Part shown: one piece after another, positions 5,930 through 53,491 of the stretch
How the letters are laid out: every line of letters starts with the position of its first letter
How positions within the stretch are numbered: position 1 is the first letter of the stretch
Translations under genes and position numbers: made by a program
Notes under the pieces: generated by a model
Told to the model about the DNA's origin: nothing
The model's input: the letters and a program-made list of their open reading frames with translations, nothing else
Databases searched by the model: none
Source: Blastococcus xanthinilyticus
GTDB lineage: Bacteria; Actinomycetota; Actinomycetes; Mycobacteriales; Geodermatophilaceae
Reading direction: 5' to 3'
NCBI RefSeq assembly: GCF_008124835.1
Contig: NZ_VNHW01000006.1
Location: 1-64,000 of the forward strand
DNA: 64,000 nucleotides

Positions 5930-6054
5930 GTGCACCGACAAGGCTCGAAGCTTGGTCCCCGTACGTGCGCATGATCTGATCGTCCCCAGAATTGTCCGCC
6001 AGGCGCGACGCAAGCAAGTCGGTCTGGCGTCAGGTGTGGCAACGGGGGAACCTA

Positions 6055-11193: not shown

Positions 11194-12713
11194 CAGGACC
11201 GTGCCTCCGGCTGCGCGGACGGTGAGTCGGCCGGGTCGACGTGCCGGCTGGGGACGAGCCGGTGATCACGGGCGTAGGCCAGCGCGGCAGCCGTGCGCTG
11301 CTCGACGTCGACGTCGACGGTGTCGGTGCGGGCGCGGGTGACACGCGCGCGGGCGGCGTCGAGCTCGGTCGTGAGCTGCTGACCGGCTTTGCCGTCGAGG
11401 CAGCGCCGCAGCCGGGCGATGATCGGCGGCGCGGTGCCTGCGACGACGAGAGCGTGCCGCTCAGGGATGCGACGGATGTCGCCGGGGCGCAACACCCGCA
11501 CGTCCTCACCGGAGCGGGACGTGCCGATGCCGCCGGGCCCGTCGGTGACGGTCCGCCGGCTGATCCGCACGTCGTCGAGCAGGTCGGACAACTCGCGGTA
11601 GAAGTGGACGTCCTTGCCGCCGCCGAAGATGACGAGGTTGTTGGTGAGCCCGAACAGCGAGCGGGCCTCGTCCTCGCCGTACGAGACGACCATCTGTTTC
11701 CAGGTCTGGGCGGCGTAGATGAACGACAGCCCGAGCGCGCGCTCGTTGGCCATCCGCACCCGCAGAGTCGGCAGCGGCGTGGTGGACGGCAGTTCGTCGA
11801 GACACGCCAGGAAGGACGGCGTCAGCCGCCCGTGCGGCGAGGTGGTGGCGACGTGCAGGGCGGTGTCGAGGACGTTCTCGGCGACTGCGGTCATCAGCGG
11901 CGCCGCCGAGGCGTAGGGGTCCTCCCGGCCGAGTAGGTACACCGTTCCCTGCCGGGCGATCAGGTCGGCCAGATCGGTCGTCGGCCGCCCGCGCGAAGGC
12001 ACGCAGCGAGCTCTGATGTCCGGCTGGAAGAACAGCGCCATCGCTTGCTGGACCGTGGTCACCGTGTTGCCAACGGTGTCCGGGCTGCCGTGCAGTGCGC
12101 CGATCAGCAGCCCGTCCCAGAACCGAGCCGCGTGCGGATGCTGCTGCAGGATCCCGGCGGGCTGCTCGGCGGCGACCGGGTTGGCTACCCACTCAAGGAC
12201 GTGCTCCAGGGTGCGGCCGGTGAGTGCCGCCGCGTGCAGGAATCCCTGCAGAACCTTGGCGGTCTCCGCGGCGTAGAACCGGGCGGCGTTGTCCTGCCGG
12301 CCTCCGCTGACCGCGCCGGCGACGGTGCCGGCGGCGAACGCCTTGGCTCGTCGCTCGGCGATCCGAGGATCGACGCAGCCGGCGACCGGATCCCACACCA
12401 GCTCCGGCAGCCCCGGGGCGGCGCCGAAAGGATCGAGGACCGCGACCGGGCGCGGCGGCTCGCCGGGGCCAGCGGGCCGTTGCCGTCGTTCGGCGGTCAG
12501 CAGCAGGTCGTCGACCTTGGTCAGCGTCGCCAGCCCGGCGCCACGGTGGGCCAGCAGGGCGGGAGCGAGCAGGTCGAGGGTCTTGCCGGACCCCTGCTCG
12601 CCGTAGACGCCGGTGGTCCGGTCGTAGCGGCACCACAGCTCCACCCCGTGCGGCTGGGAGGAGCGCCCCAGCCGCCAGCCGACGTCGGTCGGATCGAACC
12701 CTGACGTGAGCAT
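11190..12713 (-). CDS. VirD4/TraG-like type IV coupling ATPase, soluble part
   Basis: This is the coupling ATPase that hands the relaxase-DNA complex to the secretion channel. It opens with GWRLGRSSQPHGVELW, the segment that in TraG/VirD4 proteins directly precedes the P-loop, then Walker A GEQGSGKT (about residue 40). Downstream CLDELPSTTPLP is the Walker B/Glu region and FIYAAQTWKQM the usual sensor helix. Unlike standard VirD4 proteins it has no N-terminal membrane segments: those seem to be in a separate gene at 14329-14949. AGGGGAG lies upstream of the ATG. The 3' end overlaps the DUF4913-like gene, and 12 bp separate it from the gene before. Confidence 0.88.
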   Translation of the reverse strand: MLTSGFDPTDVGWRLGRSSQPHGVELWCRYDRTTGVYGEQGSGKTLDLLAPALLAHRGAGLATLTKVDDLLLTAERRQRPAGPGEPPRPVAVLDPFGAAPGLPELVWDPVAGCVDPRIAERRAKAFAAGTVAGAVSGGRQDNAARFYAAETAKVLQGFLHAAALTGRTLEHVLEWVANPVAAEQPAGILQQHPHAARFWDGLLIGALHGSPDTVGNTVTTVQQAMALFFQPDIRARCVPSRGRPTTDLADLIARQGTVYLLGREDPYASAAPLMTAVAENVLDTALHVATTSPHGRLTPSFLACLDELPSTTPLPTLRVRMANERALGLSFIYAAQTWKQMVVSYGEDEARSLFGLTNNLVIFGGGKDVHFYRELSDLLDDVRISRRTVTDGPGGIGTSRSGEDVRVLRPGDIRRIPERHALVVAGTAPPIIARLRRCLDGKAGQQLTTELDAARARVTRARTDTVDVDVEQRTAAALAYARDHRLVPSRHVDPADSPSAQPEARSW

Positions 12714-14949: not shown

Positions 14950-16178
14950 GCGCCGGCCCCGGCTCGGTGGTGGATGTGCACGTCTTGATTTCCTCTCTGC
15001 CGGTCAGCCCCGGCGACGGTGGCGGCGCGCAGGTCGACGCCGTGGTCGGCCAGCCACGGCACGGGATCGACGGACGCGCCGTCGAGGCGAACCTCGAGGT
15101 GCAGGTGGACGCCGGTGCTGTTGCCGGTGGACCCCTGGAAGCCGAGCAGCGCCCCGGCGCTGACGCGCTGGCCGGCGGTAGCGGTGTAGGCCGACAGGTG
15201 TGCGTAGCGGGTGGTCACCCCGCCGCCGTGGTCGAGTTCGACGAGGTTGCCGTAGCCGGTCAGGCTCAGGCTTCCGTCGCGGTCGCAGTAGGCGCTGGTG
15301 CACGCGGCGGTGACCACGGTGCCGTCGGCGGAGGCGTAGACCGGGGTGTCGCGCGATCCGGCGATGTCGACCCCGGCGTGCAGGGCGCCTCCACGGGGCC
15401 CGTAGCCGGAGGTGACGGTGCCGGCGGTGGGCCGGATCCACGACCCAGCAGCCACCGGCAGGCCCGGGCAGACGCCGGCCACCGCGCTGCCCGGGGCGGC
15501 CGCGGTCGCCTGGGCGGCCGGCCACAGCACGGCCGTCAGCTCGCGGGCGAGCGGCTCCCAGTGGGCGTAGGCGCCTCCATAGGCCGAGACCTGCACGGCC
15601 TGTGCGGCCTGAGTGAGCGGGATGGCCCGCCAGTCGGGCACGGCCACGAGCCGGCGGTAGAAGGCCTCGGCGGCGTAGACGGGGTCCATCAGCTGGGCGA
15701 CGGTGCCCCAGCCGGCGATCCAGCGCTGTTGGAAGGTGTTGACGCTGTCGTGGTCGGAGCCGAGCCCGTCATGCGGAAAGTTCAAGCTGGTTGCGGTCAC
15801 GGCGGCTTGGTCGGCGGTGAGTTCGGGGCTGCTGCCGTCGTTGGCCAGCATCCGGATTCGCGACTCCTGGTACGCGGTGGCCAGCGCCACGGTGGCCGCG
15901 TACGGGTCGAGTCCTTGTACCGAGGCGACGGTCACGATGGTCTGTGCGTGGCCCATCTGGACGGCGTCCAGCTCGGTGCCGGCGACCGTGCTGCCGGTGC
16001 CGCCGATCGAGCAGGACGACGACGCCGTCGCCGTCGACGCCTCCGGTGCGGCGAGAACCGCGAGAGGGATCAGCAGCAGCGTCAATACGCCGAACACCGG
16101 GACAGCGACGGGAGCGGCGGCCTTCCACAGCCATCGCTTCACGTACGCCTTAGCCAGTCCTTCGACAGTCCCGCTCAC
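14946..16178 (-). CDS. T4SS peptidoglycan hydrolase: lytic transglycosylase-like plus M23 peptidase
   Basis: This membrane-anchored enzyme should open the cell wall for the channel. A membrane helix lies near residues 15-40. Residues 70-200 resemble a VirB1/lysozyme-like domain (ATAYQESRIRML with the likely catalytic Glu, later SVNTFQQRW). Residues 250-380 form an M23 metallopeptidase with the zinc ligands in LHAGVDIAG and HLHLEVRLDG. The start is GTG 16178, which overlaps the VirB4 stop as GTGA; the open frame runs further upstream without a suitable start. Two hydrolytic domains in one protein are known from Gram-positive T4SSs (for example the Tn916-type hydrolases, with different domains). 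Confidence 0.87.
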   Translation of the reverse strand: MSGTVEGLAKAYVKRWLWKAAAPVAVPVFGVLTLLLIPLAVLAAPEASTATASSSCSIGGTGSTVAGTELDAVQMGHAQTIVTVASVQGLDPYAATVALATAYQESRIRMLANDGSSPELTADQAAVTATSLNFPHDGLGSDHDSVNTFQQRWIAGWGTVAQLMDPVYAAEAFYRRLVAVPDWRAIPLTQAAQAVQVSAYGGAYAHWEPLARELTAVLWPAAQATAAAPGSAVAGVCPGLPVAAGSWIRPTAGTVTSGYGPRGGALHAGVDIAGSRDTPVYASADGTVVTAACTSAYCDRDGSLSLTGYGNLVELDHGGGVTTRYAHLSAYTATAGQRVSAGALLGFQGSTGNSTGVHLHLEVRLDGASVDPVPWLADHGVDLRAATVAGADRQRGNQDVHIHHRAGAGA

Positions 16179-17683
16179 GCCGGACGTCCGGCGGTGAGGG
16201 CCTCGTTGGTGTCGGTCAGGGCCAGCTCGGGCGCCGTGAGGACGGTCTGCACCTTGAAGGCTCGGTCGCCGACCAGCCAGAGGGCACGGCCCTTGCCGGC
16301 GATCGCCCAGCCGGTGACCACCCGCTGGGCGATCGGGGTCAGCCCGAGCATGGTGGCGAGCTCGTCGGCGACGGCCTGGTCCTGGCCGTGCAGCACCTTG
16401 ACGTCGCACAGGTGCAGCAGGTCGCGGGCGATGGCCACCGCCTGAGAAGAGGCGTCGCCGGCGGTGAGCATGTCCGAGGGCTTGTGCGCGAGCAGGATCT
16501 GCACGTCGGCGTCGCGGCGGGACAGCCGCAGGTTGGCGTCCAGGCTCTTCATCGCCTCGGCACCGAGGCGCATCTGCCGCCAGGTCTCGTCGCGGATGAC
16601 GATGCGGAGGTCGCCTGGGTCGGCGATCTCGCGCATGGCTTGTCCCCAGGAGTTCAGGCAGGTCAGTGCGATGCCGACGGCCTGGTCACCGAGCGGCTCG
16701 AGGCGGGACAGCGACAGGGATTGGATGGGCGCGCGCCAGTCGACCTCGATCGACGTGTGGTCGTCGAACAGCCCGGCCAACGAGCCCTTGACGAGGGAGC
16801 CGAGGGCATCGCGCAGGGTTCGGGTGGCGTCGAGGAAGTGCCGCCGGTCGGCGTAGCGGCATGAGGCGACGAGGTCGTCGGCGGGTTCGTCCAGGGCTTG
16901 CCACAGCTGCGGGATGGTGGGCTCGGTCAGCCGGGTGGCTCCCCTGCGGTAGCCGGTGAGCAGTCGCAGCGCCTCGCCGACGGCGGTCTCCTCCACCGGG
17001 CCGAAGGGCACGTTCTGGGAGCCGACCAGGCCACGGATCAGCACCAGCCAGCGGGCGAACACGATCGCCTCGCGGCGGCGGGCCTCGGCGGCGTCGAGCC
17101 GGTCCCAGCCGTGGCCGAGCGGACCGAAGGCCAGCGGGTTGACCCGGGCGGACAGTCCGTGGCCGATGACGAACGGCTCCACGCCCAGCGCGCGGCACAG
17201 CGGCTCGTACTCGTCCTTGGTGTCGCCCAGGATCAGCGTGCGGTAGCCGTACGCCAGCATCCGCAACGCGAAAGCCTTGACGGTGGCCGACTTACCGCGG
17301 CCGGGCTTACCGAAGACCACGACGTTCGGGTTGGTGACCGGGATGTCGTCGTCGGTGACCCAGCCGACCGGATCGCAGTAGAACGCCCCGCCCGACAACA
17401 GGTCGATGCCCATCTGCGCGCCCGTAGGCGGTAGCCCGCTGCTGGCGATCAACGGCCACACCACCGGCGTCTGCTCCGACGTCATCCGCCACACCGACAG
17501 CGGCGCGGTCGCCGCCGCCCGCCCCAGGCCTCGCCCACGCGGCCCACGGCGGGGCACGAACTCGATGAACGGCCCGCGCTCTCGTCGCCCCGCCTCCACG
17601 GCGGGGACGGCGGGGAGCCGGTGACCGAAGTCGTCGAGCAGGACGGCGACGTCCCGGCCCCGGCGGGAGCCGCGGCGGTTCAT
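16175..17683 (-). CDS. VirB4-like T4SS ATPase
   Basis: This is the motor ATPase of the secretion channel. Walker A is GKPGRGKSATVKAF (about residue 130), followed by LILGDTKDEYEPL. Walker B is the LRIVIRDETW region near 370, and AHKPSDML resembles the VirB4/HerA motif IV region. ATG 17683 overlaps the preceding stop (ATGA), so translation is coupled to the SCO6880-like gene. The 502-residue length corresponds to the C-terminal ATPase half of classical VirB4, with the N-terminal membrane half probably supplied by that neighbour, as in Streptomyces-type elements. Confidence 0.88.
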   Translation of the reverse strand: MNRRGSRRGRDVAVLLDDFGHRLPAVPAVEAGRRERGPFIEFVPRRGPRGRGLGRAAATAPLSVWRMTSEQTPVVWPLIASSGLPPTGAQMGIDLLSGGAFYCDPVGWVTDDDIPVTNPNVVVFGKPGRGKSATVKAFALRMLAYGYRTLILGDTKDEYEPLCRALGVEPFVIGHGLSARVNPLAFGPLGHGWDRLDAAEARRREAIVFARWLVLIRGLVGSQNVPFGPVEETAVGEALRLLTGYRRGATRLTEPTIPQLWQALDEPADDLVASCRYADRRHFLDATRTLRDALGSLVKGSLAGLFDDHTSIEVDWRAPIQSLSLSRLEPLGDQAVGIALTCLNSWGQAMREIADPGDLRIVIRDETWRQMRLGAEAMKSLDANLRLSRRDADVQILLAHKPSDMLTAGDASSQAVAIARDLLHLCDVKVLHGQDQAVADELATMLGLTPIAQRVVTGWAIAGKGRALWLVGDRAFKVQTVLTAPELALTDTNEALTAGRPA

Positions 17684-19194
17684 CGTCGCCCCCTGCGGTC
17701 GGGCAGCCCGACGCCGAGGGGAATGGCGGCAGCGGCGAAGCCGGAGTCCTGCGCCAGGTCCAGCCGCAACGGCACGAAGCCGGCAGCACGGACCGACGCC
17801 GCGAGCCGGCGGCCGTGCTCGTCCACCGGCCAGGTGGCCGGGACGGTGATGCAAGCCGCGACAGCGGGACGGACGAGCGCCCGCCCGGCCGCCAGCTTTT
17901 CATCGGCGGCACCGATCCGCTCGGTGTCCCGTCGCTGCCGGGCCCGCTGACGGAAGCCCATACGGGCGCGCAGCTCGTTACCGGTAGTGGCGCTCATCTC
18001 CTCTCGGCCCACCATGCGGGTGGCCCGGTCCAGCGGCAGCGGGGCGAGGAACACCGTCAGGCAGCGCCGCTCCCCCGCCGTCGTCGGCACCAGCACCGGA
18101 GCCAATGCACCGAGCACAGCCCCGGAGTCGGGCAGCAGGATCGTGTCGGTGACCGACGCCCACGCGTCGTGCACGTAGTGCCGTAGCTCGGCGCGAGCCT
18201 GGGAGGGTCCGGCGGCGGCCATCGGCACCCCGGTCGCCAGCTGGGCGCCGTTGGCGGCGGCCAGGTCGGCGGCGATCAGTTGGCCACGGTCGCCGGGCGC
18301 GAAGCCGGTGCGTACCGCGGCAGCCAGTGCCGCCGAGTCCAGCCAGGTGACGGCGGTGCAACCGACCGGGCCGCGCAGCGCACTCTCGACCTCGGCCATC
18401 ACCCCGTGCAGCACCCGGGCGCGGCCGTCCACCCCGCCGCCGCTCTCCTTCGCAGCCCGCCCGATCCGGCTCTCGCCGACGACGACGGTCACGAAGGCCT
18501 CGGTGCGCACCGCAGCCGGAGTGAGGGTGGCACCCAGCAGCGCATTCACCCGGACGGCCAGAAAAGCGGCGTCGGAACGGGTGTGGGCTCGTTCCCACGC
18601 GGCGCGCTCGGCACCGTCGTCGGGCACCGTGCGCACCTGCACGGCCAGGACGTCGATCAGTTCGGTGCGCGCGGCGATCTCGCACATTTCGGCCAGGCCG
18701 GCCCCCATCCGGTCCCGCTCGCCCGGCTCGGCCAGGCCGATGCCGGGATGGTTGATCCGCGCCACGGCCGCCCACGTACGCGCCGCGGAGTTCTGCACGA
18801 TCACCGGGCGGGTGAACAGTTGCCCATAGGGCGGTCCGTCGTGAGTGCGGATGCCGGCGAGCACTCCAGGCAGGTCCGCCTCGGACAGGTCCTCGGCCGT
18901 CCCGGACGCGGCTCGAGAGCCGAACACCGTCCAGCCCGTCGCACCTCCGATCGCGTGCAGGCAAAGGTCGGCGAACCAGCGGCCCGCGGCCCGCCCCCGG
19001 ACGGGGACCAACAGCACGGCGGCCAGCAGCGCCCACACCGGCAGCCACACCAGCAGCAGGCCCCACGTCTGCGCGTTGAGGGCCAACAGCGCCGGTACGC
19101 CGGCGAGGGTGACCAGGGCCAGCTGGGCACCGGTCATGCCGAGGAACCAGCCGGAGACGTCGCGGGAGTAGTCGCCGTAGCGGACAGCGTTCAT
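17680..19194 (-). CDS. SCO6880-like T4SS membrane protein (PrgI/VirB3-B4 N-terminal-like)
   Basis: This 504-residue protein starts with YGDYSRDVSGWFLGMTGAQ, the conserved opening of SCO6880-family proteins, then two close membrane helices (about 18-62) as in PrgI/VirB3, and a long soluble domain resembling the non-ATPase part of VirB4. It has no P-loop. It should join the ATPase at 16175-17683 to the membrane complex. Its ATG overlaps the preceding stop (ATGA), and its stop overlaps the VirB4 start. The family assignment is by the N-terminal pattern and gene order. Confidence 0.82.
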   Translation of the reverse strand: MNAVRYGDYSRDVSGWFLGMTGAQLALVTLAGVPALLALNAQTWGLLLVWLPVWALLAAVLLVPVRGRAAGRWFADLCLHAIGGATGWTVFGSRAASGTAEDLSEADLPGVLAGIRTHDGPPYGQLFTRPVIVQNSAARTWAAVARINHPGIGLAEPGERDRMGAGLAEMCEIAARTELIDVLAVQVRTVPDDGAERAAWERAHTRSDAAFLAVRVNALLGATLTPAAVRTEAFVTVVVGESRIGRAAKESGGGVDGRARVLHGVMAEVESALRGPVGCTAVTWLDSAALAAAVRTGFAPGDRGQLIAADLAAANGAQLATGVPMAAAGPSQARAELRHYVHDAWASVTDTILLPDSGAVLGALAPVLVPTTAGERRCLTVFLAPLPLDRATRMVGREEMSATTGNELRARMGFRQRARQRRDTERIGAADEKLAAGRALVRPAVAACITVPATWPVDEHGRRLAASVRAAGFVPLRLDLAQDSGFAAAAIPLGVGLPDRRGRR

Positions 19195-21591: not shown

Positions 21592-21971
21592 CAGGTGCAC
21601 CCACTACCGGTGATGGAGTCGAGGATGACCAGGATGACCGTGTAGGTGATCGCCACCATCACGACCACCGCGACGCCCATCGCCCCGAAGCGGGAGGCAT
21701 GCGGATGAGAGAACAACCGGCCCACCAGGACCGAACCCAGCGACACGACCGCGGCGACGCCGATCAACGCGAGTACTCCCCACTTCACCCACGCCGTCAC
21801 CTGATCGGCGAAGACCTGCACGCCCGGCGGCGCCTCCGGGCAGACCGCCGCGCCCAGCTCCACCTGCGCCGCGTTGGCAGGCCACGCGGTCAGCACAATC
21901 AGGCCCGCAGCGACGAGCGCGACCGTCGAGGCCGCTCGCACCGCTGCTGGCGCGGTCCTCTGGCGGTTCAC
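21591..21971 (-). CDS. Small secreted/membrane protein, VirB2 pilin-like
   Basis: The 126-residue product has a signal sequence ending near AWPANAAQ, then a short polar part with cysteines (VCPEAPPG) and two membrane helices (about 62-86 and 95-118). That pattern of a processed precursor with two hydrophobic helices resembles VirB2/TrbC pilins and the corresponding small proteins of Gram-positive T4SSs. GTG 21971 overlaps the ParA-like gene's stop (GTGA). A terminal CT with cysteine is unusual. The pilin role is inferred from size, topology and position. Confidence 0.65.
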   Translation of the reverse strand: MNRQRTAPAAVRAASTVALVAAGLIVLTAWPANAAQVELGAAVCPEAPPGVQVFADQVTAWVKWGVLALIGVAAVVSLGSVLVGRLFSHPHASRFGAMGVAVVVMVAITYTVILVILDSITGSGCT

Positions 21972-23083
21972 CGTGCGTCCTCCGCGGCCCCTAGCTGGGA
22001 CGAAGCCGCCCGGTGGCTCAGGCGACGCGGCGGTGGCACGGCCGGCACCAACAGCGCGACCAGCGACCGGCCAGCCGCCTCGACTGCCTTAGGCAGCCGG
22101 TCCTCGGTGAGACCCGCAGCCTGCAGTCCTCGGTCGACAGCAACTCGGATCACCCGTCCCCTCGACCGCAGCTGACTGAGCCGCGGACCGCAGCTGGCAT
22201 TAACCGCCTGCGGCCAGCGCGCTGGCCCCACGACCGCGACCACGACCGGCTGGTCGGTCAGCTGGCTCAGCGCGTGCTCGGCCAGTCGCACCCCGGGCAC
22301 AGTCGGCCGGCAGACGACAACGGTGCGCGTGCGGTCGGCGGCCAGTCCGGCAAGGTCCTCCGGAGCAGCCAGGCCTAGATCTAGGACGGTGACCGCCGGT
22401 TCCTCGCTGATCGGGAGGACCGGCCATGTGCCTGGCTCCACGTCCGCGAGCCGGCGGTCGATCGTGACGCGGCCGCGGGAGCCACGACGCCAGGCGCCGG
22501 TGGCGTCGGCGCCCAGCTCCGCCGACGCCGCGGCGATCAGCCCCGACCGGCAGGGATGCGAAGTCTCGACAAGGTGCACCCTCCGGTCGGTGGCTGCAAC
22601 GGCGTCGCTGATGGCTACGGCCACCGTGGAGGCGCCGGCGCCGGCGTGTGCCGCTACGACCGTGATCCAGTCGGCCGCCAGGGCGTTGATGTCACCCCCG
22701 CGCGGGACGGCTGCGGGCGCTCTGTCACCCCTGCTTGCGCCTCTCCGCGGCGCTCTGTCACCCCTGCCAGCCGACGGCTCGCGGGGTATCTCCTCTCGAG
22801 CCGGGAGCGCCGCGCTGTCCCCGTCCAGCCATGTGCGGGGCGGCGATAAGACCGGTACGTCCGCCGCCGATGCGGAGTCCTCGGACACGGAGGGCACGTG
22901 GAGAGGCGGCGCCGCCGCCAGCCCTCGTGCGGCGACTCGCGGACGACGGGCACGCAGCTCGCGGAAAGCCTGCTGGATCTCCGCAACGGACAGCAGTCGC
23001 TCGTCGGAGTCCACGTCGCCGCCATTGGCTACACGACCCGTCACAACGCCGGCTTCATCGACGTCCTGCAGCAGTGCGCTCAC
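21968..23083 (-). CDS. ParA/MinD-like P-loop protein with altered Walker A
   Basis: The C-terminal 250 residues resemble a MinD/ParA ATPase (ITVVAAHAGAGASTVAVAIS, then VHLVETSHPCRSGLIAAAS and TVLDLGLAAPEDLAGL). The deviant Walker A reads AHAGAGAST, lacking both lysines of KGGxGK[ST], so ATP hydrolysis may be weak or lost. The first 120 residues are a low-complexity linker containing RGDRAP twice, 11 residues apart. The start is GTG 23083, overlapping the preceding stop (GTGA). In a conjugation operon such proteins may position the machinery or relaxosome at the pole. Confidence 0.75.
   Translation of the reverse strand: MSALLQDVDEAGVVTGRVANGGDVDSDERLLSVAEIQQAFRELRARRPRVAARGLAAAPPLHVPSVSEDSASAADVPVLSPPRTWLDGDSAALPAREEIPREPSAGRGDRAPRRGASRGDRAPAAVPRGGDINALAADWITVVAAHAGAGASTVAVAISDAVAATDRRVHLVETSHPCRSGLIAAASAELGADATGAWRRGSRGRVTIDRRLADVEPGTWPVLPISEEPAVTVLDLGLAAPEDLAGLAADRTRTVVVCRPTVPGVRLAEHALSQLTDQPVVVAVVGPARWPQAVNASCGPRLSQLRSRGRVIRVAVDRGLQAAGLTEDRLPKAVEAAGRSLVALLVPAVPPPRRLSHRAASSQLGAAEDAR
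22690..22763. repeat. Three TGTCACCC boxes at 33-bp period inside the ParA-like gene
   Basis: TGTCACCC starts at 22690, 22723 and 22756, exactly 33 bp apart. The period equals 11 codons, so it may reflect a protein repeat (RGD/GGD), but it also equals about three helical turns. The same octamer occurs twice in the operon's upstream region (23926, 23954), which favours a DNA-binding role. Confidence 0.7.
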
Positions 23084-23838
23084 GCGACGGCCGCCAGGTA
23101 CTGGGGAGCCACGCCGCGCAGGGCGGTCAGGGTCCGGTTCCGCCGGCGGTACAAGGTGCGCGTCGTGATGCCGTGCGCGGCGGCGACGTTCTGGTCCGCG
23201 CGCCGGTGCTGACGGTCGCGGCTGCACTCGGTGGCGATGAGCAGTGCGACGTCCCCCGCATCGACGCCTGAACGCACCGCCCACTGCAGCAGGTCGACGA
23301 CGTCGAGGTCCTCCCCCTCCTCGCAGGCGTTGGCAGCTGCAATCCGACCGATGTCGCCCGTGGCTGTCAGGACCTCGACCCTGTCGGGGTGGTAACGGCT
23401 GCTGAGGCGGAGGTCCGCGAGCACCGCCCGCCGGGTCTCGGCGCGCAGGTTCGCCGCGATCGCCCGAGGCCGGCGTCGCCATGGGTAGCGGCGGATCTGG
23501 CAGGTGAGTTCGCCGACGACCACGGCGAGGATGTCGGGGTTCAGGTCTGCGAGCTGCCTGGCCATCGTGTGCGCCAGTCCGCTGAAAAGGTGAAGGGTCA
23601 GCAGCAGCGCGTCGTCGTCGCGGCCGCCGTCCACAGCGGCCAGCCGCAGGAGCGCGGCGAGCACGGCGTCGCGGCGGTCGTCCGCGCCGTCCTCCTCCCA
23701 GACGGCGAGCAGGTCATGGGCGCTGCTCAGCCCGGCGAAGGCCGGCTCGGTGGCTGCCCAACGGACGAGGATGGCGTCGCCATCCAGGCGCGCGGCGAGC
23801 GCCGGCCAGCTGCCGACGATGGTGGGGTCGTAGAACAT
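23080..23838 (-). CDS. Sigma-factor-like regulator heading the T4SS operon
   Basis: The 252-residue protein looks like a divergent sigma-70/ECF-type factor: a helical middle (about 75-140) resembling region 2, and a C-terminal helix-turn-helix (AAAHGITTRTLYRRRNRTLTALR) like region 4.2. I chose ATG 23838 because GGAGGA lies about 8 nt upstream; an ATG 18 bases earlier has no such site. It is the first gene of the operon, and its stop overlaps the ParA-like GTG. It may control its own operon through the TGTCACCC boxes upstream. A non-sigma HTH regulator is an alternative. Confidence 0.65.
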   Translation of the reverse strand: MFYDPTIVGSWPALAARLDGDAILVRWAATEPAFAGLSSAHDLLAVWEEDGADDRRDAVLAALLRLAAVDGGRDDDALLLTLHLFSGLAHTMARQLADLNPDILAVVVGELTCQIRRYPWRRRPRAIAANLRAETRRAVLADLRLSSRYHPDRVEVLTATGDIGRIAAANACEEGEDLDVVDLLQWAVRSGVDAGDVALLIATECSRDRQHRRADQNVAAAHGITTRTLYRRRNRTLTALRGVAPQYLAAVA

Positions 23839-23923
23839 GCGTGAGTCCTCCGGCATCGGTGTGATGCCGTCGACGCTCCGCAGAGACGTTCAACGAGCCG
23901 TCACCCTCGGCCGGGGAGACCGG

Positions 23924-23978
23924 GCTGTCACCCCCGCGTGAGGGACACCGCGCTGTCACCCCCGCGTGAGGGACACCG
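23924..23978. promoter_or_regulatory. Tandem dyad operator-like repeats upstream of T4SS operon
   Basis: A 27-bp sequence is repeated exactly at 23924-23950 and 23952-23978 (28-bp period). Each copy contains a dyad of TGTCACCC and AGGGACA half-sites with 7 nt between them. A degenerate GTCACCCTCGG lies at 23899. The array is 86 bp upstream of the first operon gene and is a good candidate operator or partition-like site. Confidence 0.72.
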
Positions 23979-24026
23979 CCCTGGTGCGCTCGTGGTCCCG
24001 CACCCGCACGTCGGCGACTTTGCGTG

Positions 24027-26033
24027 TCACTGACGCTCTCGGGCTGCTCCGGCCGGCGGTGGTCCGTGGACCGAAGAGTCCGCAGATGTCGCCGGCGACC
24101 CCAGACCTGTGGGCGGCTCGGCCTCCGCCAGCGTTTCGGGCCTTTCTGGCTGGGCCGGATCTTCCTGCTCGGCCCCTTCTGCTGAGTCGACCGGCTGACT
24201 GCCCGTCGACGGGTCGGTCTGGGGTATCCGGGAGAGCCAGACTGGTACGACCGCAAGCCTCAGGGCAAGCCACCAGGCGTAAAGGGCGTAAGCGCTCCAA
24301 GCCTGTCCGTCAGTGAGCAGGCCGTGGGCCACGTGGTTGCGAAGATTGGCACCCTGCTGCTCGACCAGCAAGGCACGCAGTTCGAACGCCAGCGACTCGC
24401 CCAGCACCGCCGTCGCCTCGGGCATACCGAGGAGGGCTCCCAGTCCCTTCTCGGATTCCACCCCGTTGTCCGGGTCGACCACCAGGGTGTAGGCCCCGGC
24501 AGCGCGCAATTGCAGGCGGACGACTTGCTCCAGTTGGGGCACGAGAAGCGCGATCGCGGAAGGGAAGTCGCCGTTCAGGCCATGGTGTAGCCCTCGGGCC
24601 CACAGATCGACGTGCCCGGCAGGGACAGTCGGCGAGTCCAGGCAGAGGCGCTGCAGCGTGTCCAAGGCAAAGCGGTGCTCGGCCTGAAGAACCCCCAGAG
24701 CCGGCATGAGCACGCCGACGGCGCTCATCTCGACACGTATGCCGAAGTCCCGCACGAGAGCGGCATCCAGGTCGTCCTCTACGTCACCAATGCCGCCGCC
24801 GACGGCGACCTTTCGGCCGTCACCGGCCAGGGTCATGCGACTGAACAGGCGACTCAAGCTCTCCGCGAGTTGGTCGCGGACGGCGGCGCTGGCCGTGGGA
24901 ACGTCGGTGAGCGGCAGCAGAGTGCAGAAGCGCGCCAACGCCTCGAACCTTTCGTGACCGGACACCTGGCGCCTGGCTTGCTGAGCTGATGTGGTCAGGT
25001 CAACCGGATCAGAGTCGACTGCCGTCATCAGCTCAAGTGACAGCCGTCTCGTCGCGGCTAACTCCCGCCGGAGTTCATCGACGCGATCGTCCAGGCCGCC
25101 GGAGGCCCGACGGGCGCGTGGGATCTGCATCAGCCGGGCGATGGCCTGCTCGTACAAGGTTCCTGCCACGAACGCGCCGGAGTCGTCCCCGGACATGCGG
25201 TCTGTAGCTTCGGCGACGTAGGACTCGGCGATGCGAGCCTGCGCGGTCCAAGCTGCGTCCTGGTCCCCGGCGAGCACACACCACGCGCTGGCCTCGTCGT
25301 CGAGGTGACGGGCTAGGCGACGATTCCTCTGGGTCACCTCGGCGGCTAGGGCCGACAGGTGGGTCGAGACCTCGAGTGGGTCCGGGCGCAGCCGTGACCG
25401 CAGCGACCGCAGCAGCTCGGACAGCTTCACGGTCATGAAGGCGTCGGCAGTCGTGGTAGCCAGCAGGCGGTCGGCCAGCTTTTCGGTCATCTCCCGGGCT
25501 CGGTCCCGCTCAGCAGTCCCACGACGCAGGATCAACTCCAGGGCCCGGATCCAAGACTCCTCTCCCACGCTGAACCACGTGTGGGAGTCGAGGGGGACAG
25601 CTCGGTAAGCGTCTACGGCTAGGTGCAACAGGTCCACCCGACTCCGCTCGCCGTAGGTCCAGCAAACATCGGCGACGCGTGCCCGCAAGGTCGTGTGCTC
25701 GATCAGGGGCGCCACGCGGGTCAGGAGCTCGAGTTGGTCGACGGTCAAGTCAGCGGGCACCAGTGACCGGCGGCCCTCCCAGCGCATGGCCGGCTCGAAC
25801 GGATCTGACCAATTGTCGGCCGCCAGCATCGCCGATGCGCTGGTGGCCAGTGCTTGCAAGACCTGCTGCTGGAGGGAGCCCTCCGGTGCTTGCCGCGCCG
25901 CGGCGGCCAACTCGGAGAACCACAGTTCTGGCTGCTCCAGGTCAGCTGTGTCGCCCATCGCCGTCGCGGCGTCGGACCACCACGACGCGTCGATTTCTTC
26001 CGGAGCGTCCGGCACGCCGGCCTGGTCAACCAT
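24027..26033 (-). CDS. DUF4209-like protein with C-terminal HEPN-type RNase motif
   Basis: This 668-residue helical protein ends in a domain resembling DUF4209: residues 560-620 include SLAFELRALLVEQQGANLRN followed by HVAHGLL. The sequence RNHVAH fits the R-x4-H motif of HEPN ribonucleases, with a preceding conserved acidic stretch. HEPN domains often act as RNA-cleaving effectors in phage defence. The first 500 residues are helical and lack motifs that I recognise. The gene is divergent from a SIR2 gene 212 bp away. Its 3' end is 48 bp from the operator-like repeats of the T4SS operon. Family naming is from memory of motif context and needs a profile search. Confidence 0.68.
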   Translation of the reverse strand: MVDQAGVPDAPEEIDASWWSDAATAMGDTADLEQPELWFSELAAAARQAPEGSLQQQVLQALATSASAMLAADNWSDPFEPAMRWEGRRSLVPADLTVDQLELLTRVAPLIEHTTLRARVADVCWTYGERSRVDLLHLAVDAYRAVPLDSHTWFSVGEESWIRALELILRRGTAERDRAREMTEKLADRLLATTTADAFMTVKLSELLRSLRSRLRPDPLEVSTHLSALAAEVTQRNRRLARHLDDEASAWCVLAGDQDAAWTAQARIAESYVAEATDRMSGDDSGAFVAGTLYEQAIARLMQIPRARRASGGLDDRVDELRRELAATRRLSLELMTAVDSDPVDLTTSAQQARRQVSGHERFEALARFCTLLPLTDVPTASAAVRDQLAESLSRLFSRMTLAGDGRKVAVGGGIGDVEDDLDAALVRDFGIRVEMSAVGVLMPALGVLQAEHRFALDTLQRLCLDSPTVPAGHVDLWARGLHHGLNGDFPSAIALLVPQLEQVVRLQLRAAGAYTLVVDPDNGVESEKGLGALLGMPEATAVLGESLAFELRALLVEQQGANLRNHVAHGLLTDGQAWSAYALYAWWLALRLAVVPVWLSRIPQTDPSTGSQPVDSAEGAEQEDPAQPERPETLAEAEPPTGLGSPATSADSSVHGPPPAGAARERQ

Positions 26034-26245
26034 GGTCCCCGTCCCCCCGATGGCTCACGGCCACAGCCTGGCATGTTCTGCCCGAATGTCGGGCCGCCGT
26101 CACGCTGCCCGTGGCTCTGGGCGCGACCGAACTATGGTCAACCGCGGATTCGATCCCAACCGCGCACGGCAGTCTCCAGCCCCCGATCGTCTCCCTGGGA
26201 CGGGTCATCCGGGCCGGGCGAGCCGGTTCCTGGGAGTATGCGCCG

Positions 26246-27646
26246 GTGAGCGCCGCCGAACTCGATCTCGTCACGCTCGAGCGCCTGCGCCCCGTCGCGG
26301 TCGCCGGGCAGGTGAGCGTCTTGCTGGGAGCCGGCGCTTCAGCCGCGGCTGGCCTTCCTGACTGGAACAGCTTGGCAACCCAGCTGCTGCAGCTCAGCGG
26401 CACGATCGATGACGAAGAGACCGCCCGGGCCTTCCTGGCGGGACAAGACCCTTCCCTGGCCGCGGAAGCAGCACGAGCGGGAGCCAGCGACTGGCTCGAG
26501 CTCGTGCGCAGCGCCCTTTACCCGCCGTCTGTAGGGGAGCCTGAACCAGCTGCCCTGCACTTCGCGGTGGCGTCCCTGGCCGCGCCGCGCCTGGTCGGCG
26601 AGGTCGGCCTGTTCACGCTGAACTTCGACCTGCTGATAGAGCGAGCATTGCAGGACGCCTTGGAGGAGGTCGGGAGCGGCGCTGGCGTCCATGCCCGAGA
26701 CACCGAGGACGACCGGGCCCCCCGGGGGGATTTTGAGGTTCACCACCTGCACGGGTACCTGGGCCAGGACGTGGCCGAGACTGGCGAAATCGTGCTGACG
26801 TTGTCCGACTTCACCAAGCTGAGTGCCCAGCCCTCGCCATGGCAGCGCGCCGCCCTGCAAGAGGCTCTAAGCCGCGGACCGCTGGTGCTGGCCGGCACGT
26901 CCTACCGCGACAGCGACATCCGCCAGTGGCTCCATGAGCTCCTCGCCACCCGCCCCGACAAGGGATTCATCCTCTTGGCCCGGGAAGGACTCGGGCTGTC
27001 CCGGCAGCAGTTCGACTTGGTCAAGGACGCCCTGGTAACGCAGTGGGCCTCCATCGGGGTGTCAGCGGTCTTGGTGCAGGACTACAGCGACGCCGCCCAG
27101 GCGATCCGGGAGCTGAGCACCCTCACCGAGCCGGGTTACCAGGCACCGAAGGTGCGAGCCGGTGCCCTCTGGGATGCCATCAGAGGCGATTTCGCCCAGT
27201 TGCAGCAGGAGCACTCCGACCAGCTGGCCGATGACCTCACTCGGCTTCGGCCGCTGCTTGGCGATGACGCGAACATGACCCTGTGGCTTGCCGATGGGGC
27301 CGGGCAAATTGTGCGGTGGAGTTCTCACGACCGCCTCTACCGGAGCCCGGCACAGCTGCGCCGGGTTCCGGTCGGCCATGACAGCCCCTGGATCGCTGGC
27401 CAGTGCCTGGGCCGTTCAGAGATCCTGGCTCGGGACCTTTCCGAGGCCATGAGCACTCGGCGGTGGCATTCGGTGGTGGCTGCGCCCTGCGTCGCCGACC
27501 TGCCCGGTGGGCCACCACTCCCGACGGCGGTGCTGAGCTCGGCAGCAACGACCCCGCTGGAAGATCAGGACCTGGATGCGTGGGCCGCGGTACTTGCCGA
27601 GCTGTCGGAAGAGTGGGCTGAGCGGCTGTCCACCCTGGCGGAGTGA
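26246..27646 (+). CDS. SIR2-family NAD-dependent effector with C-terminal GAF-like domain
   Basis: Residues 1-270 form a SIR2-type domain: LLGAGASAAAGLPDW (NAD-binding), NFDLLIERAL (about 125) and HHLHGYLG (about 167) with the catalytic-type His. Bacterial SIR2 proteins of this kind usually cleave NAD in anti-phage abortive infection. Residues 330-460 resemble a GAF fold (MTLWLADGAGQIVRW, WHSVVAAPCVADLPGG, LPTAVLSSA), a ligand-sensing module that I do not associate with known SIR2 defence proteins. GTG 26246 has GGGAG upstream; the frame extends further 5' without a clear start. It is divergent from the HEPN-like gene, suggesting a two-gene module. Confidence 0.75.
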   Translation: MSAAELDLVTLERLRPVAVAGQVSVLLGAGASAAAGLPDWNSLATQLLQLSGTIDDEETARAFLAGQDPSLAAEAARAGASDWLELVRSALYPPSVGEPEPAALHFAVASLAAPRLVGEVGLFTLNFDLLIERALQDALEEVGSGAGVHARDTEDDRAPRGDFEVHHLHGYLGQDVAETGEIVLTLSDFTKLSAQPSPWQRAALQEALSRGPLVLAGTSYRDSDIRQWLHELLATRPDKGFILLAREGLGLSRQQFDLVKDALVTQWASIGVSAVLVQDYSDAAQAIRELSTLTEPGYQAPKVRAGALWDAIRGDFAQLQQEHSDQLADDLTRLRPLLGDDANMTLWLADGAGQIVRWSSHDRLYRSPAQLRRVPVGHDSPWIAGQCLGRSEILARDLSEAMSTRRWHSVVAAPCVADLPGGPPLPTAVLSSAATTPLEDQDLDAWAAVLAELSEEWAERLSTLAE

Positions 27647-28318: not shown

Positions 28319-28492
28319 TCAGCCCCCAGCTTTCTTGGTCGGTCGGCTTGGAGGCTGGTAGGCCGCGGCTCGGCGCAAGAGCGCGGCTGCAGCTGCGTCG
28401 GACACCCGCGAGCGGGCACGCTGCGCGGCCCGCTCTCCCAGCGACGACCGGTCGATGAGCCGGTCAATCTGGCGGACCTTACGGACGGTCAT
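28319..28492 (-). CDS. 57-residue basic protein coupled to sigma factor
   Basis: The product (MTVRKVRQIDRLIDRSSL...) is short, rich in Arg and Ala, and has no recognised motif. Its ATG overlaps the sigma gene's stop as ATGA, so the two are translated together. Small proteins coupled to ECF sigma factors may be partners or antagonists, although typical anti-sigma factors are larger and often membrane-bound; this one has no membrane segment. The coding call rests on the tight coupling and lack of any overlapping alternative. Confidence 0.6.
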   Translation of the reverse strand: MTVRKVRQIDRLIDRSSLGERAAQRARSRVSDAAAAALLRRAAAYQPPSRPTKKAGG

Positions 28493-29313
28493 GCGACCAC
28501 TCCCAGCTTCTTCAACCGGTCCCGGTTGTTGGCCAACATGCGCTCGACTGCCTTCTCGGTGACGCCTAACCGCTGTGCGATCTCCCACTGCTGCCAGCCC
28601 CACGCCGCATAGACCAAGGCTCGCTTGACGCGAGGGTCCGTGACCTTACGCAGGATCCGCTCGACTTCCTGCTGGTCGATGGTGTGCTGCTCGGGGCTCT
28701 CGATCGCGGACCTGTCCAGCTTCTGCAACTCGACGGGGTCGTCGATGGTGACGCGCGATGCCCTCATCTCCTTGGCCCACCACGTCCTGTAGACGTTGGC
28801 GAACCGGATGAGGCACTGACCGATGAAGAAGGTGCGCAGCGTGGCGCCCTTGGTGGCGGTCCAGCGGCGCTCGAGCAGGACGTCGCGGCGGAAGTGGACG
28901 AGGGCCTTGGCCACGGTCTCGCCGACGAGCTCGTCGATGGTGTCGCGGTCTCGGAGTTGATCGTCTGGAGGTGACGGCAGACCGCCGAAGCCGCGCTCCT
29001 TAATCTTGCCAAACATCCGCCCCGTGACCAGCCAGCCGGTGAGCACGTCGCTGCCATACTTCGCGAGCTCGGTGTTGAATACGTCGAAGTCGCGGCCGGC
29101 GAAGCCCTGCAGTGCCAAGTGGGTGACTAGGTCGGTATCGGCTTCCAACCGGGCCAAGCTGCGGGCGTGCTCGGTGTGGTTGTACTCGTCTAACCAGTCC
29201 TTCGGCACGCTGGCCGGTTTGTCATGCTGGATGCCTTTGTCAGGTCGTATGTGCGCCGGCGCGGTAGCGGACACGGCTGACCGCCGCGGCAGCCTGCCCT
29301 CCGCCTCGCTCAT
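28489..29313 (-). CDS. ECF-like RNA polymerase sigma factor
   Basis: This 274-residue protein has a region-2-like helical middle (about 125-185, with TLRTFFIGQCLIRFANVYRT) and a C-terminal region 4 (about 225-272, AAWGWQQWEIAQRLGVTEKA), whose last helices form a clear helix-turn-helix. It should redirect RNA polymerase to a set of promoters within the element or host; the targets are unknown. It heads a two-gene operon with the 57-residue protein. The 29314-29566 interval upstream presumably holds its promoter, with a small palindrome GAACTTCGTTC at 29342-29352. Confidence 0.78.
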   Translation of the reverse strand: MSEAEGRLPRRSAVSATAPAHIRPDKGIQHDKPASVPKDWLDEYNHTEHARSLARLEADTDLVTHLALQGFAGRDFDVFNTELAKYGSDVLTGWLVTGRMFGKIKERGFGGLPSPPDDQLRDRDTIDELVGETVAKALVHFRRDVLLERRWTATKGATLRTFFIGQCLIRFANVYRTWWAKEMRASRVTIDDPVELQKLDRSAIESPEQHTIDQQEVERILRKVTDPRVKRALVYAAWGWQQWEIAQRLGVTEKAVERMLANNRDRLKKLGVVA

Positions 29314-32938: not shown

Positions 32939-33360
32939 GACAGTCCCTCACCGGAGGTGACCCCGACCAACAGCTGAGCGGTGTGCACGCGGGTCTGGCT
33001 GACCGGGATGCCGAGCAGCGGTGTCGAGTCGGTGACGGTCACGCTGACCTCGACGATGCCGGGACCGGTGACGGTCACCGTGCCGGTCGCGCCGGCTCGA
33101 TCGAGGTAGGAGCGGGCCGCGGTCGCCGCCAATTGCGCGTCGGTGCTGCCGCCGGTGGGAACCGGGCCGATGGCGATGCTGGCCGCGCGGGCGGCCTCAG
33201 CCGAGTACGTGTCGGCGCGGTTGGCGGTCTGGATCGCGGTCCCGGCGTCGACAAGCGCGGTGACCAGGACGCCGGTGATGAGCACGATGAAGCAGAACAG
33301 CACGGCCACGGACCCGCGGTCGTCCTGGAGTTGATCGCTGGCTTGCGAGCGGGGTGTCAC
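32935..33360 (-). CDS. TadE/Rv3654c-like pseudopilin
   Basis: The 141-residue protein has a short basic leader (DDRGSVAVLF) and one membrane helix (VLFCFIVLITGVLVTALVDA), followed by an extracellular domain. That is the pattern of TadE/TadG-like minor pilins, which the prepilin peptidase could cut before the helix. GTG 33360 overlaps the preceding stop (GTGA), and its stop overlaps the LysM-BTAD start. It is the third pilin-like protein in this operon with the RGS leader. Confidence 0.82.
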   Translation of the reverse strand: MTPRSQASDQLQDDRGSVAVLFCFIVLITGVLVTALVDAGTAIQTANRADTYSAEAARAASIAIGPVPTGGSTDAQLAATAARSYLDRAGATGTVTVTGPGIVEVSVTVTDSTPLLGIPVSQTRVHTAQLLVGVTSGEGLS

Positions 33361-33824
33361 GACAGGTCCCTGGCAGGGTCCAGCGGGCTGGTGGCGCTGT
33401 CGTGCAGCGTCCGGGAACCGGGCAGGCCGGCAACTCCACCGATGTCAGACAGGTCGACGGTGCAGGACACAGCAACGGTGACCGACGCCGAGGCGCCCGG
33501 CGGCGCGATGAACCCGGATGTGTCGACGCTGACCTGGACGTCGATGCAGAGCAGGCCCTGGCTGGTCAGTGCGGTGGTGGCAGTTTCGGTGGCGATCTGT
33601 TGGGCCGCGGCGGCCGATCGGGCCAGCGAGGCGTCCCGCGCCGCGATCCCGGCAACGCCGCTGATGCGGTCGCCGGCCAGCGCGATCCGGGCGCCGACCA
33701 CCAGCATGGCCACCAGGAGGAGTCCGACCGGCAGCAGGATCGCCAGCTCGACCGACTCCGAGCCGCGGTCGTCCCGCCACCGCCCTTGACGGCTGGTCGT
33801 GGCCGGCTGCACGTCGCGACTCAT
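33357..33824 (-). CDS. TadE-like minor pilin
   Basis: This 155-residue protein has the leader DDRGSESVELAILLPVGLLL, with Glu at the +5-like position after a short basic segment, typical of TadE-type pseudopilins. One membrane helix is followed by a secreted domain containing two cysteines (LLCIDVQV and AVSCTVDL) that could pair. I selected ATG 33824, overlapping the previous stop as ATGA; the open frame extends upstream with no supporting start. It probably initiates or modulates Flp pilus assembly. Confidence 0.83.
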   Translation of the reverse strand: MSRDVQPATTSRQGRWRDDRGSESVELAILLPVGLLLVAMLVVGARIALAGDRISGVAGIAARDASLARSAAAAQQIATETATTALTSQGLLCIDVQVSVDTSGFIAPPGASASVTVAVSCTVDLSDIGGVAGLPGSRTLHDSATSPLDPARDLS

Positions 33825-34291
33825 GGCGAGTCCGGGGTGGTGAAGCGTTCCTTGCCGCGCACCACGGTGACATCGACGGTCGGGGCGAAGCCGGGCAGCG
33901 GGATCACGTTGGGCACGCTGGCGGTGACGTGTACCGAGACCGTGGTAGCGGTGTCGGACTCGGTCACCGAATAGCCGGTGATCGTGCCGGTGCCGAGGTT
34001 GTCCAGGTACGTGTCCGCCGCCGCCCGCCCCGCTCCCCCGACCGCCCCGTGGACGCTCGCGGCGCGGGCTCCGGCGTGCGCCGCGGCGTCGGCCGCTTCC
34101 CGGGCGAAGTACCACAGCGCGAGCTGCGGGCCGGCCAACAGCAGCGCGACGATGATGGGGAACAGAATCGCGAACTCGACGCTGGATGAGCCCCGCTCCC
34201 TTCCCCGGCCGCGATCCCGGAGAGAGCCCGGGCGCGCGACCGGACCGTGCGGCGAGGAAGCCGCACGGTCCGCAGTACGCGCCTCGAGCAT
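33821..34291 (-). CDS. TadE-like minor pilin
   Basis: The product carries RERGSSSVEFAILFPIIVAL, the TadE leader with its conserved Glu, then a membrane helix and an extracellular domain. From ATG 34291 the protein is 156 residues with an unusually long (about 33-residue) pre-leader; a start 54 bases upstream would overlap the end of the Flp gene. No strong ribosome site marks either. It ends in an ATGA overlap with the next TadE-like gene. Confidence 0.8.
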   Translation of the reverse strand: MLEARTADRAASSPHGPVARPGSLRDRGRGRERGSSSVEFAILFPIIVALLLAGPQLALWYFAREAADAAAHAGARAASVHGAVGGAGRAAADTYLDNLGTGTITGYSVTESDTATTVSVHVTASVPNVIPLPGFAPTVDVTVVRGKERFTTPDSP

Positions 34292-34307
34292 GGGATGGCT
34301 GCCCGTT

Positions 34308-34544
34308 CTACTGGAACAGCGACGTCTTGCTGGCCACGAACGCAATAGCCGCTGCGCTGACCGCGCCGCCCAGAGCGATGGCCAGGATCACCATGAAGGC
34401 CTTCTCTGAGGAGTCCGAGCCTCGGTCGTCGGCGACTTGCTCGGTGCGCAGCCAGGCCAGGACCGACAGAGCCATGACAGACAGGGCCATGACGCATTGC
34501 GCCACGATGGCCTGCTCACCCCGGCGAGCCGTGGGCTGGAACAT
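34308..34544 (-). CDS. flp: Flp-type major pilin
   Basis: The 78-residue product ends with a single hydrophobic helix in EKAFMVILAIALGGAVSAAA, resembling Flp pilins of actinobacterial Tad systems. An upstream hydrophobic stretch (IVAQCVMALSVMALSVLAWL) is unusual for an Flp pilin, which normally has only one. AGGAGG lies 6 nt before ATG 34544, which fixes the start; the 26-bp gap from TadC is the widest in the operon and may allow extra expression. It should be cut by the prepilin peptidase at 41156-41794. The assignment as the main pilin is by position and size. Confidence 0.72.
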   Translation of the reverse strand: MFQPTARRGEQAIVAQCVMALSVMALSVLAWLRTEQVADDRGSDSSEKAFMVILAIALGGAVSAAAIAFVASKTSLFQ

Positions 34545-34570
34545 GGGAAACCTCCTGGTTGGCGCTGCGG

Positions 34571-35470
34571 TCACGATGAGATCCCGAACATGCGGAGCAT
34601 GAAGGGAACGAGCACGAACAGGGTCAGTCCAGTGACCAGCAGGGCCAGCGGGCGCGACATCCGCTCGCTGACCTGATTGGCCTGGGTACGGGCGTCGGAC
34701 AGCTCGGCGTGGCGAAGCGTGCGGGCGCTGGCCAGCAGGGTGTTGTAGACCGAGGCGCCGTCGGCGGCTACTGCCGCGATGTCGGCGAGGTTGCGCAGCT
34801 CGGCGACCTGTAGCTCCTCACCGAGGTCGCGCAGCTCGCCCCACGGCTTGCGGCCGGACAGCGCTGCCCGGCGGATGGCGCGGCGCATGCGAACGAACGG
34901 CATGCTTCCCGAGATCTCGGCGGCCTCCTCCAGCGCCTGCTCCACCGAGCCGCGCGCCCGACGTTCACCGGCCACCAGGGTGAGGAAGGACTCGAGGTTG
35001 CTCCGGAACTCCATCCGCGCCTTGTCCGCCGCCTCACGGGCCTCGGCCGAGGGCAAGAACCACCCGACGACGGCGATCCCGAGCCCGACCGCGGCGGGCA
35101 GGACGAAGGGCACCGGAACGTCGACCAACACGAGCACCAGGCCGAACAGGGACGGAGTGAGCAAGCCGGCGAGTGCCAGGGTCAGCTTGCGGGCCGCCAG
35201 CTGAGCGCGGGTCCAGCCGATGATCGACAGGTCGGCGTCCGAGACGCCCAGATGCCCGTCCAACACCCGCGCCACCGGCACCGGCAGCCAGTCCCACCGG
35301 TTCTGAATGGACGCCGGCACCGACGGCGCCGTTCGCACGGTCGGCTCGGCCGCCAACTGCTCCAGTGCGGCCACCAACGACGGCGGCGCCGGACGCAGGG
35401 CACGGACCCCGAGTACGAGGCCGCCGGCGATCAGCATCCCGGCGAGGGTTGCCGTCTGCAGCCCGGTCAC
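34571..35470 (-). CDS. tadC: TadC-like pilus inner-membrane protein
   Basis: This 299-residue protein belongs to the GspF/TadC family of platform proteins. Membrane helices lie near 5-25, 95-140 and 275-299, and the cytoplasmic part between them has the family-type charged helices (RMEFRSNLESFLTLVAGERR, RKPWGELRDLGEEL). GTG 35470 overlaps the TadB stop (GTGA). With TadB it should form the membrane platform driven by the TadA ATPase. Confidence 0.88.
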   Translation of the reverse strand: MTGLQTATLAGMLIAGGLVLGVRALRPAPPSLVAALEQLAAEPTVRTAPSVPASIQNRWDWLPVPVARVLDGHLGVSDADLSIIGWTRAQLAARKLTLALAGLLTPSLFGLVLVLVDVPVPFVLPAAVGLGIAVVGWFLPSAEAREAADKARMEFRSNLESFLTLVAGERRARGSVEQALEEAAEISGSMPFVRMRRAIRRAALSGRKPWGELRDLGEELQVAELRNLADIAAVAADGASVYNTLLASARTLRHAELSDARTQANQVSERMSRPLALLVTGLTLFVLVPFMLRMFGISS

Positions 35471-38593: not shown

Positions 38594-38597
38594 CGGT

Positions 38598-40899: not shown

Positions 40900-40992
40900 G
40901 CCTGTTCACCTCCCAGCACGTCACCGTCCGTCGACCGAGGTTGCCCTCCCGGCCGAGCGGACGTGTGACCGTCGTCTCGTTCCCACCCTTTC

Positions 40993-53381: not shown

Positions 53382-53403
53382 CAGGCACCTCCGACACCAA
53401 GTA

Positions 53404-53424: not shown

Positions 53425-53445
53425 GACCCATCTGACAGAGACAAC

Positions 53446-53483: not shown

Positions 53484-53491
53484 TTGATTTG

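Follow-up and report, generated by a model that had tools for sequence, protein, structure and literature searches.

The transfer operon and its boxes

The window analysed here, a stretch of 64,000 nucleotides from Blastococcus xanthinilyticus, a soil actinobacterium, forms the left end of its contig in a genome of 4.6 Mb. Judged by its gene content the window contains an integrated element of the T4SS type (ICE), whose close relatives are found in Blastococcus and Geodermatophilus (Table 1). The transfer operon of the element lies on the minus strand and is headed by two overlapping genes, the first encoding a sigma-like HTH protein and the second a ParA-like protein. For the sigma-like gene we took the ATG at 23838, preceded by GGAGGA, as start codon. 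A short box, the octamer TGTCACCC, is found both in the intergenic region before the sigma-like gene and inside the ParA-like gene; on the minus strand, which is the coding strand of both genes, it reads GGGTGACA.

Table 1. Genes and sequence features of the element, in window coordinates
Feature	Position	Strand	Remarks
TrwC relaxase	166-5778		with primase part
TraG/D-type (VirD4-type) coupling protein	11190-12713		
VirB4-like ATPase	16175-17854		
SCO6880-family protein	17680-19194		
ParA/MinD-like protein	21968-23083	-	degenerate Walker A (HAGAGAST); N-terminal disordered linker hosts the three intragenic boxes
Intragenic box 3	22690-22697	-	coding strand GGGTGACA
Intragenic box 2	22723-22730	-	coding strand GGGTGACA; neighbours 33 bp away
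Intragenic box 1	22756-22763	-	coding strand GGGTGACA
Sigma-like HTH protein	23080-23838	-	ORF; first gene of the transfer operon; proposed box binder
Conserved hairpin CGGCATC-ACACC-GATGCCG	23851-23869	-	immediately precedes the Shine-Dalgarno sequence from which the sigma-like gene is read
Conserved core element TGCGGAGCGTC	23872-23882	-	17 bp downstream of the proximal box
Proximal operator-like dyad GGTCTCCCCGGCCGAGGGTGACG	23899-23921	-	orthologous to the conserved palindrome of relatives, TGTCACCC-N7-GGGTGACG; proximal GGTGAC at 23900-23905
28-bp tandem unit GCTGTCACCCCCGCGTGAGGGACACCGC	23924-23951	-	TGTCACCC at 23926-23933, AGGGACA at 23941-23947
Second, identical 28-bp unit GCTGTCACCCCCGCGTGAGGGACACCGC	23952-23979	-	TGTCACCC at 23954-23961, AGGGACA at 23969-23975
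Integrase	52131-53549		beside tRNA-Asn (53491-53564)

A scan of the window places TGTCACCC on the plus strand at 22690, 22723, 22756, 23926 and 23954. A previous sequence-only reading of this DNA had reported five copies within 1.3 kb, the first three at an exact 33-bp period, and both statements were confirmed with every position as originally given. Scanning the whole window adds three copies on the minus strand (11336, 40993 and 62696). The total of eight in 64 kb compares with 2.96 in 100 dinucleotide shuffles (sd 1.82, maximum 7), none of which gave eight copies, and five of the eight fall inside 1.3 kb.

The upstream tandem repeat is exact, as that reading had described it, with a unit of 28 bp in place of the 27 bp claimed; the dyad TGTCACCC-N7-AGGGACA reported within the unit is present, if imperfect. 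The adjoining segment at 23899-23921 is a degenerate third copy (CGTCACCC-N7-GGGAGAC..). Compared with the palindrome of relatives, the window's left arms are degenerate, and three copies stand in its place. A repeat dispersed through the genome was considered and rejected, as the 14-mer occurs once in its own genome and a 111-bp query matches only itself well. The TGTCACCC copy at 40993-41000 (minus strand) lies just before an ORF at 41003, in the context CCCACCC-TTTC-GGGTGACA, and its position is not conserved in the relatives scanned. A wider regulon served by boxes of this type elsewhere in the ICE was likewise rejected, the positions of the other copies not being conserved between elements.

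Conservation of the promoter region

Homologs of the sigma-like protein are present in 31 of 115 genomes of the family, distributed over five genera, and GGGTGAC boxes lie upstream of nearly every intact copy of the gene. They are usually arranged as TGTCACCC-N7/8-GGGTGAC, ending approximately 50 bp before the aligned gene start. The density of GGTGAC in these upstream regions is 4.07 per 330 bp, compared with 0.56 in nearby sequence. Twenty-eight genomes contain the full palindrome, approximately one copy each and in most cases at the sigma-like gene; a reversed-pattern control gave none in any genome. The sequence-only reading had made its proposal of an operator depend on conservation of the motif in homologous ICEs, and when these were examined the motif was indeed conserved.

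A core element, TGCGGAGCGTC, is also conserved downstream of the proximal box. The spacing from GGTGAC to TGCGGAGCGTC is 17 bp in 24 of the 28 loci that have both TGCGGAGCGTC and an exact GGTGAC, and loci without GGTGAC usually have a near variant (GATGAC, GGCGAC, GCTGAC or AGTGAC) at the equivalent position. The same GGTGAC-N17-TGCGGAGCGTC is found at a homolog from a different family (L146). At most loci an inverted partner box lies 15-16 bp away.

The hairpin between the core element and the sigma-like gene is retained at homologous positions in the distant homologs L144, L145 and L146 with a completely different stem sequence. This pattern suggests a structure of the 5'UTR that is preserved by compensating changes, or else another dyad site. 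One of these distant homologs, L144 (genome G552), has a longer palindrome, ATCTGTCACCCCGAATCGGGATGACAGAT, at the equivalent upstream place and is without in-gene boxes.

Constraint on the array inside the ParA-like gene

Among the relatives, successive boxes inside the ParA-like gene follow each other at exactly 33 bp in 32 of 38 cases and at 66 bp in two, so that the exact register is kept across genera. The boxes persist even where the length of the linker that encodes them differs by tens of residues between relatives. Residues 47-136 of the ParA-like protein, which form this linker, are predicted to be disordered (pLDDT ~30), and the protein could therefore tolerate the box word.

The sequence-only reading had allowed that the 33-bp spacing might reflect a conserved RGD protein repeat with synonymous drift. 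Codon use and register contradict this. The Gly-Asp codons of the linker boxes are almost always GGT-GAC, while GGT accounts for 17% of glycine codons elsewhere in these genes. Box arginines are commonly encoded by AGG or AGA, which elsewhere make up 1.2% and 0.9% of arginine codons (together 2.1%). The residue that follows the box aspartate varies (R, S, I, T or K), and in approximately nine of ten cases its codon leads with A. A protein repeat of the RGDRAP kind and nothing more would have conserved residues with free synonymous sites, a pattern that these genes do not follow. Within the window, four of four box arginine codons are AGR against a background of 5.3% (p = 6e-6) and three of three box glycine codons are GGT against 10.6%, values that come from tandem copies that are not fully independent; the comparison across genera is independent of the tandem duplication of the window. 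Since rare arginine codons and GGT are used, and the next residue changes while its codon keeps the leading A, the constraint acts on the nucleic acid. On these sequence comparisons the boxes are real sites, neither chance occurrences nor a repeat at the level of the protein.

No TGCGGAGCGTC-like element was found at 17 bp from the in-gene boxes, which are therefore unlikely to be promoters of the upstream kind, and their use as internal promoters was rejected. The in-gene boxes are absent from L026, a relative that does have the upstream sites, as well as from the distant L144, and therefore they are not essential.

Box type and subfamily of the sigma-like protein

To compare more distant members of the family, homologs of the sigma-like protein were gathered by profile searches at class and order level. 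A second subfamily (type B) has GGGCAAG boxes in place of the GGTGAC boxes of the window's type (type A), often as a pair 12 bp apart, and no comparable in-gene array was seen at its loci. Actinobacterial plasmid homologs located beside divergent conjugal-transfer operons also have GGGCAAG boxes, while Rhodococcus plasmids have GGCAAC or GGCAAT boxes. A search of plasmids with the sigma-like protein of the window gave no match, and one with a type-B homolog gave 113 records. In the Rhodococcus plasmid regions L198, L200 and L202 the sigma-like gene and the divergent conjugation operon share intergenic GGCAAC/GGCAAT repeats with inverted ATTGCC, possibly a second box subtype.

The two types separate clearly by count. 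At 24 type-A loci the upstream regions contain on average 4.25 GGTGAC and 0.08 GGCAAG, and at 21 type-B loci 0.48 GGTGAC and 3.29 GGCAAG, with at least two GGCAAG at all 21; the loci had been selected by way of the sigma-like protein, and the words to be counted were first recognised by eye. The composite GGGCAAG-N6-GGCAAG has a sigma-like ORF downstream at 31 of 44 distinct sites, some of these loci having been fetched via that gene. Genomes G090 and G081 carry both types, and since each type keeps its own box within one genome, the box type follows the protein of the element and not the host. At type-B loci a conserved A..TGG element also stands at a set distance downstream of the proximal box; the box-to-core distance is different there and shorter than a standard -35/-10 requires. 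A protein encoded on the element and travelling with the box can account for two types within one genome. Of such proteins we saw only the sigma-like one co-vary with box type, which makes it the likely binder.

Affinities of the sigma-like protein

The sigma-like protein has no Pfam or NCBIfam match above a curated cut-off. For members of the window's type (A1) the best profile match is HTH_23 (E 0.0095), and for a distant paralog it is Sigma70_r4_2 (0.0016, below the cut-off); sigma region 2 is not recognisable by profile. A PDB sequence search with the protein returned nothing. The AF2 model of the protein is of low confidence (pLDDT 65, the other structure model having 55), and its Foldseek matches are mostly sigma factors, but at E above 0.6; the C-terminal domain resembles sigma region 4, with a TM score of 0.62 to 3hug_G, but at E 4.8. 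Plasmid homologs are annotated as sigma-70 family. We call the protein sigma-like on these resemblances; since it passes no curated cut-off, it is not classed here with the sigma factors.

A candidate autoregulatory operator system

We consider it probable that the sigma-like protein encoded by the element recognises the boxes and would thereby autoregulate the promoter of the transfer operon, with the intragenic boxes as auxiliary sites approximately 1.2 kb downstream. The sequence-only reading had suggested an operator, and this part of it is now well supported: homologous elements keep the boxes where the operon begins, the ParA-like gene is constrained at the level of nucleic acid, and the box type changes with the sigma-like protein. 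Sites conserved at the operon promoter region and a site sequence that co-varies with the adjacent regulator are both marks of an autoregulatory operator of a transfer operon, and both are seen here. Conservation, a constraint on the nucleic acid, the register, a constant distance at the promoter and a box type that swaps with the subfamily are observations; physical binding, the sign of regulation and looping are proposals.

In the proposed mechanism the sigma-like protein, as product of the first gene of the T4SS operon, would recognise upstream boxes in or beside the operon promoter, at their fixed 17 bp from the core element, and its binding would set transcription of the operon. Repression or a tightly set self-control seems somewhat likelier than simple self-activation. 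The three intragenic boxes, lying within the transcribed region, may bind this protein as well, either to bring more of it to the promoter sites through a DNA loop or to form a roadblock. Their register of 33 bp corresponds to three helical turns, and they would be written through a disordered linker so that the protein tolerates them.

The inverted pair of most relatives and the fixed 17-bp distance are compatible with an operator over the promoter as well as with a -35-like element. The proximal box could be the -35 of a promoter that the sigma-like protein reads as a true sigma factor, giving positive autoregulation, with the extra boxes that lack a core binding the protein without starting transcription. 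This is rather unlikely, with the following in its favour: GGTGAC-N17-TGCGGAGCGTC has canonical promoter spacing, the protein looks sigma-like with a C-terminus resembling region 4, and type-B loci too have their fixed A..TGG. However, most loci have the inverted partner expected of a dimer operator, the type-B spacing does not suit a standard -35/-10, and region 2 could not be recognised. An operator over the promoter is given more weight than a -35-like element since the box has an inverted partner, is present in several copies and is spaced differently in type B.

It is improbable that a host factor or another protein of the ICE binds the boxes. A further sigma-70-like ORF (28489-29313) lies within the ICE and could be such a binder, but in a non-exhaustive search no other ICE protein was found to co-vary with the box. 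A factor of the host leaves unexplained why a single genome should have two box types that follow two protein subfamilies.

The sequence-only reading had also offered a parS-like site or one bound by the ParA-like protein, and for this we found no support. A centromere on which a ParA/ParB-type complex of the excised ICE assembles would account for clustered boxes adjoining a gene of MinD/ParA fold, for which the structure model gives MinD-like FlhG as best Foldseek matches (E 1e-4), and some partition systems use repeats that serve as both operators and centromeres. However, type I partition (ParA/ParB/parS) relies on Walker-A lysine(s) and a ParB-type centromere-binding partner. Both Walker-A lysines are absent from the ParA-like protein, HAGAGAST being invariant in nine aligned members; no ParB-type protein is encoded next to its gene, and the neighbouring sigma-like protein has no ParB matches. 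From element to element the box type moreover goes with the sigma-like protein, and it does so on plasmids too that have no annotated ParA gene in the immediate neighbourhood. A partition site is therefore highly improbable.

An 11-residue RGD-type protein repeat beside an unrelated upstream minisatellite, with boxes that have no function as nucleic acid, would explain a period of 33 bp (11 codons) and the exact, recent duplication upstream, but it is refuted by the codon and comparative tests described above and by the octamer within the non-coding palindrome of relatives, and can hardly be maintained.

Relation to known systems

PrgX of pCF10 and Rco of pLS20, repressors of Gram-positive conjugation operons, control transfer genes by DNA looping between two operators (PMC6540685). 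The system proposed here would resemble them in having a regulator with several operators at or near the promoter of a conjugation operon. It differs in the sigma-like character of the regulator, a feature not ascribed to PrgX or Rco, and in its extra sites approximately 1.2 kb downstream inside a protein-coding gene, where looping is a proposal. As looping is described there for PrgX and Rco (PMC6540685), auxiliary sites are plausible here.

The Rhodococcus plasmid homologs annotated as sigma-70, which are divergent beside a conjugation operon, and the region-4-like C-terminal HTH recall the sigma-70 family and ECF-like factors. In contrast to these, the protein here is below all curated profile cut-offs and its sites are multiple and inverted boxes with intragenic copies, instead of one -35/-10 pair.

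The lac O2 site is an auxiliary operator inside lacZ; it lies in the transcript under regulation and contributes to promoter control. The in-gene boxes are similarly operator-like sites inside a regulated transcript, with a presumed role at the promoter, but they are three phased half-sites, kept in several genera, that a disordered linker accommodates by means of rare codons. Omega2 of pSM19035, an element regulator of the ribbon-helix-helix type, binds contiguous heptad repeats in promoters. Short repeated words in promoters and a regulator carried by the element (here the proposed binder) are common to both, whereas here no ribbon-helix-helix protein is recognisable, the boxes are spaced and there is no evidence of partition. 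The clt/TRS sites of Streptomyces TraB transfer share with the boxes that they are direct repeats of 8 bp, lie in part within genes and belong to conjugative elements of actinobacteria. However, this element has a relaxase, a VirD4-type coupling protein and VirB4, its boxes lie at a promoter region with dyads, and in the portion of it that the window covers no FtsK-like TraB was found.

Within literature that is mostly open access, the octamer was found only in unrelated papers, and the accessible text of papers on actinobacterial T4SS-ICEs does not describe the box word or the array. By its sequence features we would file the system as a new variant among the autoregulatory operator systems of conjugation operons. 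Regulation of actinobacterial T4SS conjugation appears to be little described in the open literature as far as it is accessible, and the present analysis supplies a candidate regulator, a putative binding word for each of several of its subfamilies and an in-gene array open to synonymous recoding. It also provides a clear case of a disordered protein linker used as room for DNA code, and the exchange of box with protein subfamily inside one genome is a natural experiment on specificity change in a sigma-like HTH. More tentatively, there may be a widespread and unrecognised actinobacterial regulatory system of divergent sigma-like conjugation regulators with subfamily-specific hexamers (GGTGAC, GGCAAG, GGCAAC, GGCGAC), of which the Geodermatophilaceae branch would also read a phased array in a gene of its own operon, a dual code for coding and binding that controls the operon from within.

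Other genes of the element

A complete Lamassu-type defence module, LmuA-LmuC-LmuB, lies inside the ICE at 5992-9868 on the plus strand (E 1e-106, 9e-60 and 3e-239). Directly upstream of the box region is a PDC-S39 candidate defence protein (DUF7380/DUF4209, E 4e-191; 24027-26033, minus strand), and beyond it a SIR2_2-domain protein with ThsA-like similarity (25679-27646, plus strand). The T4SS-bearing element also has a Tad-like gene cluster at 33000-41000, with a T2SSE/CpaF-type ATPase (36330-37814) found by search, and a TadZ-like protein (37811-38593) and TadB/C-like membrane proteins recognised by reading the ORF translations.
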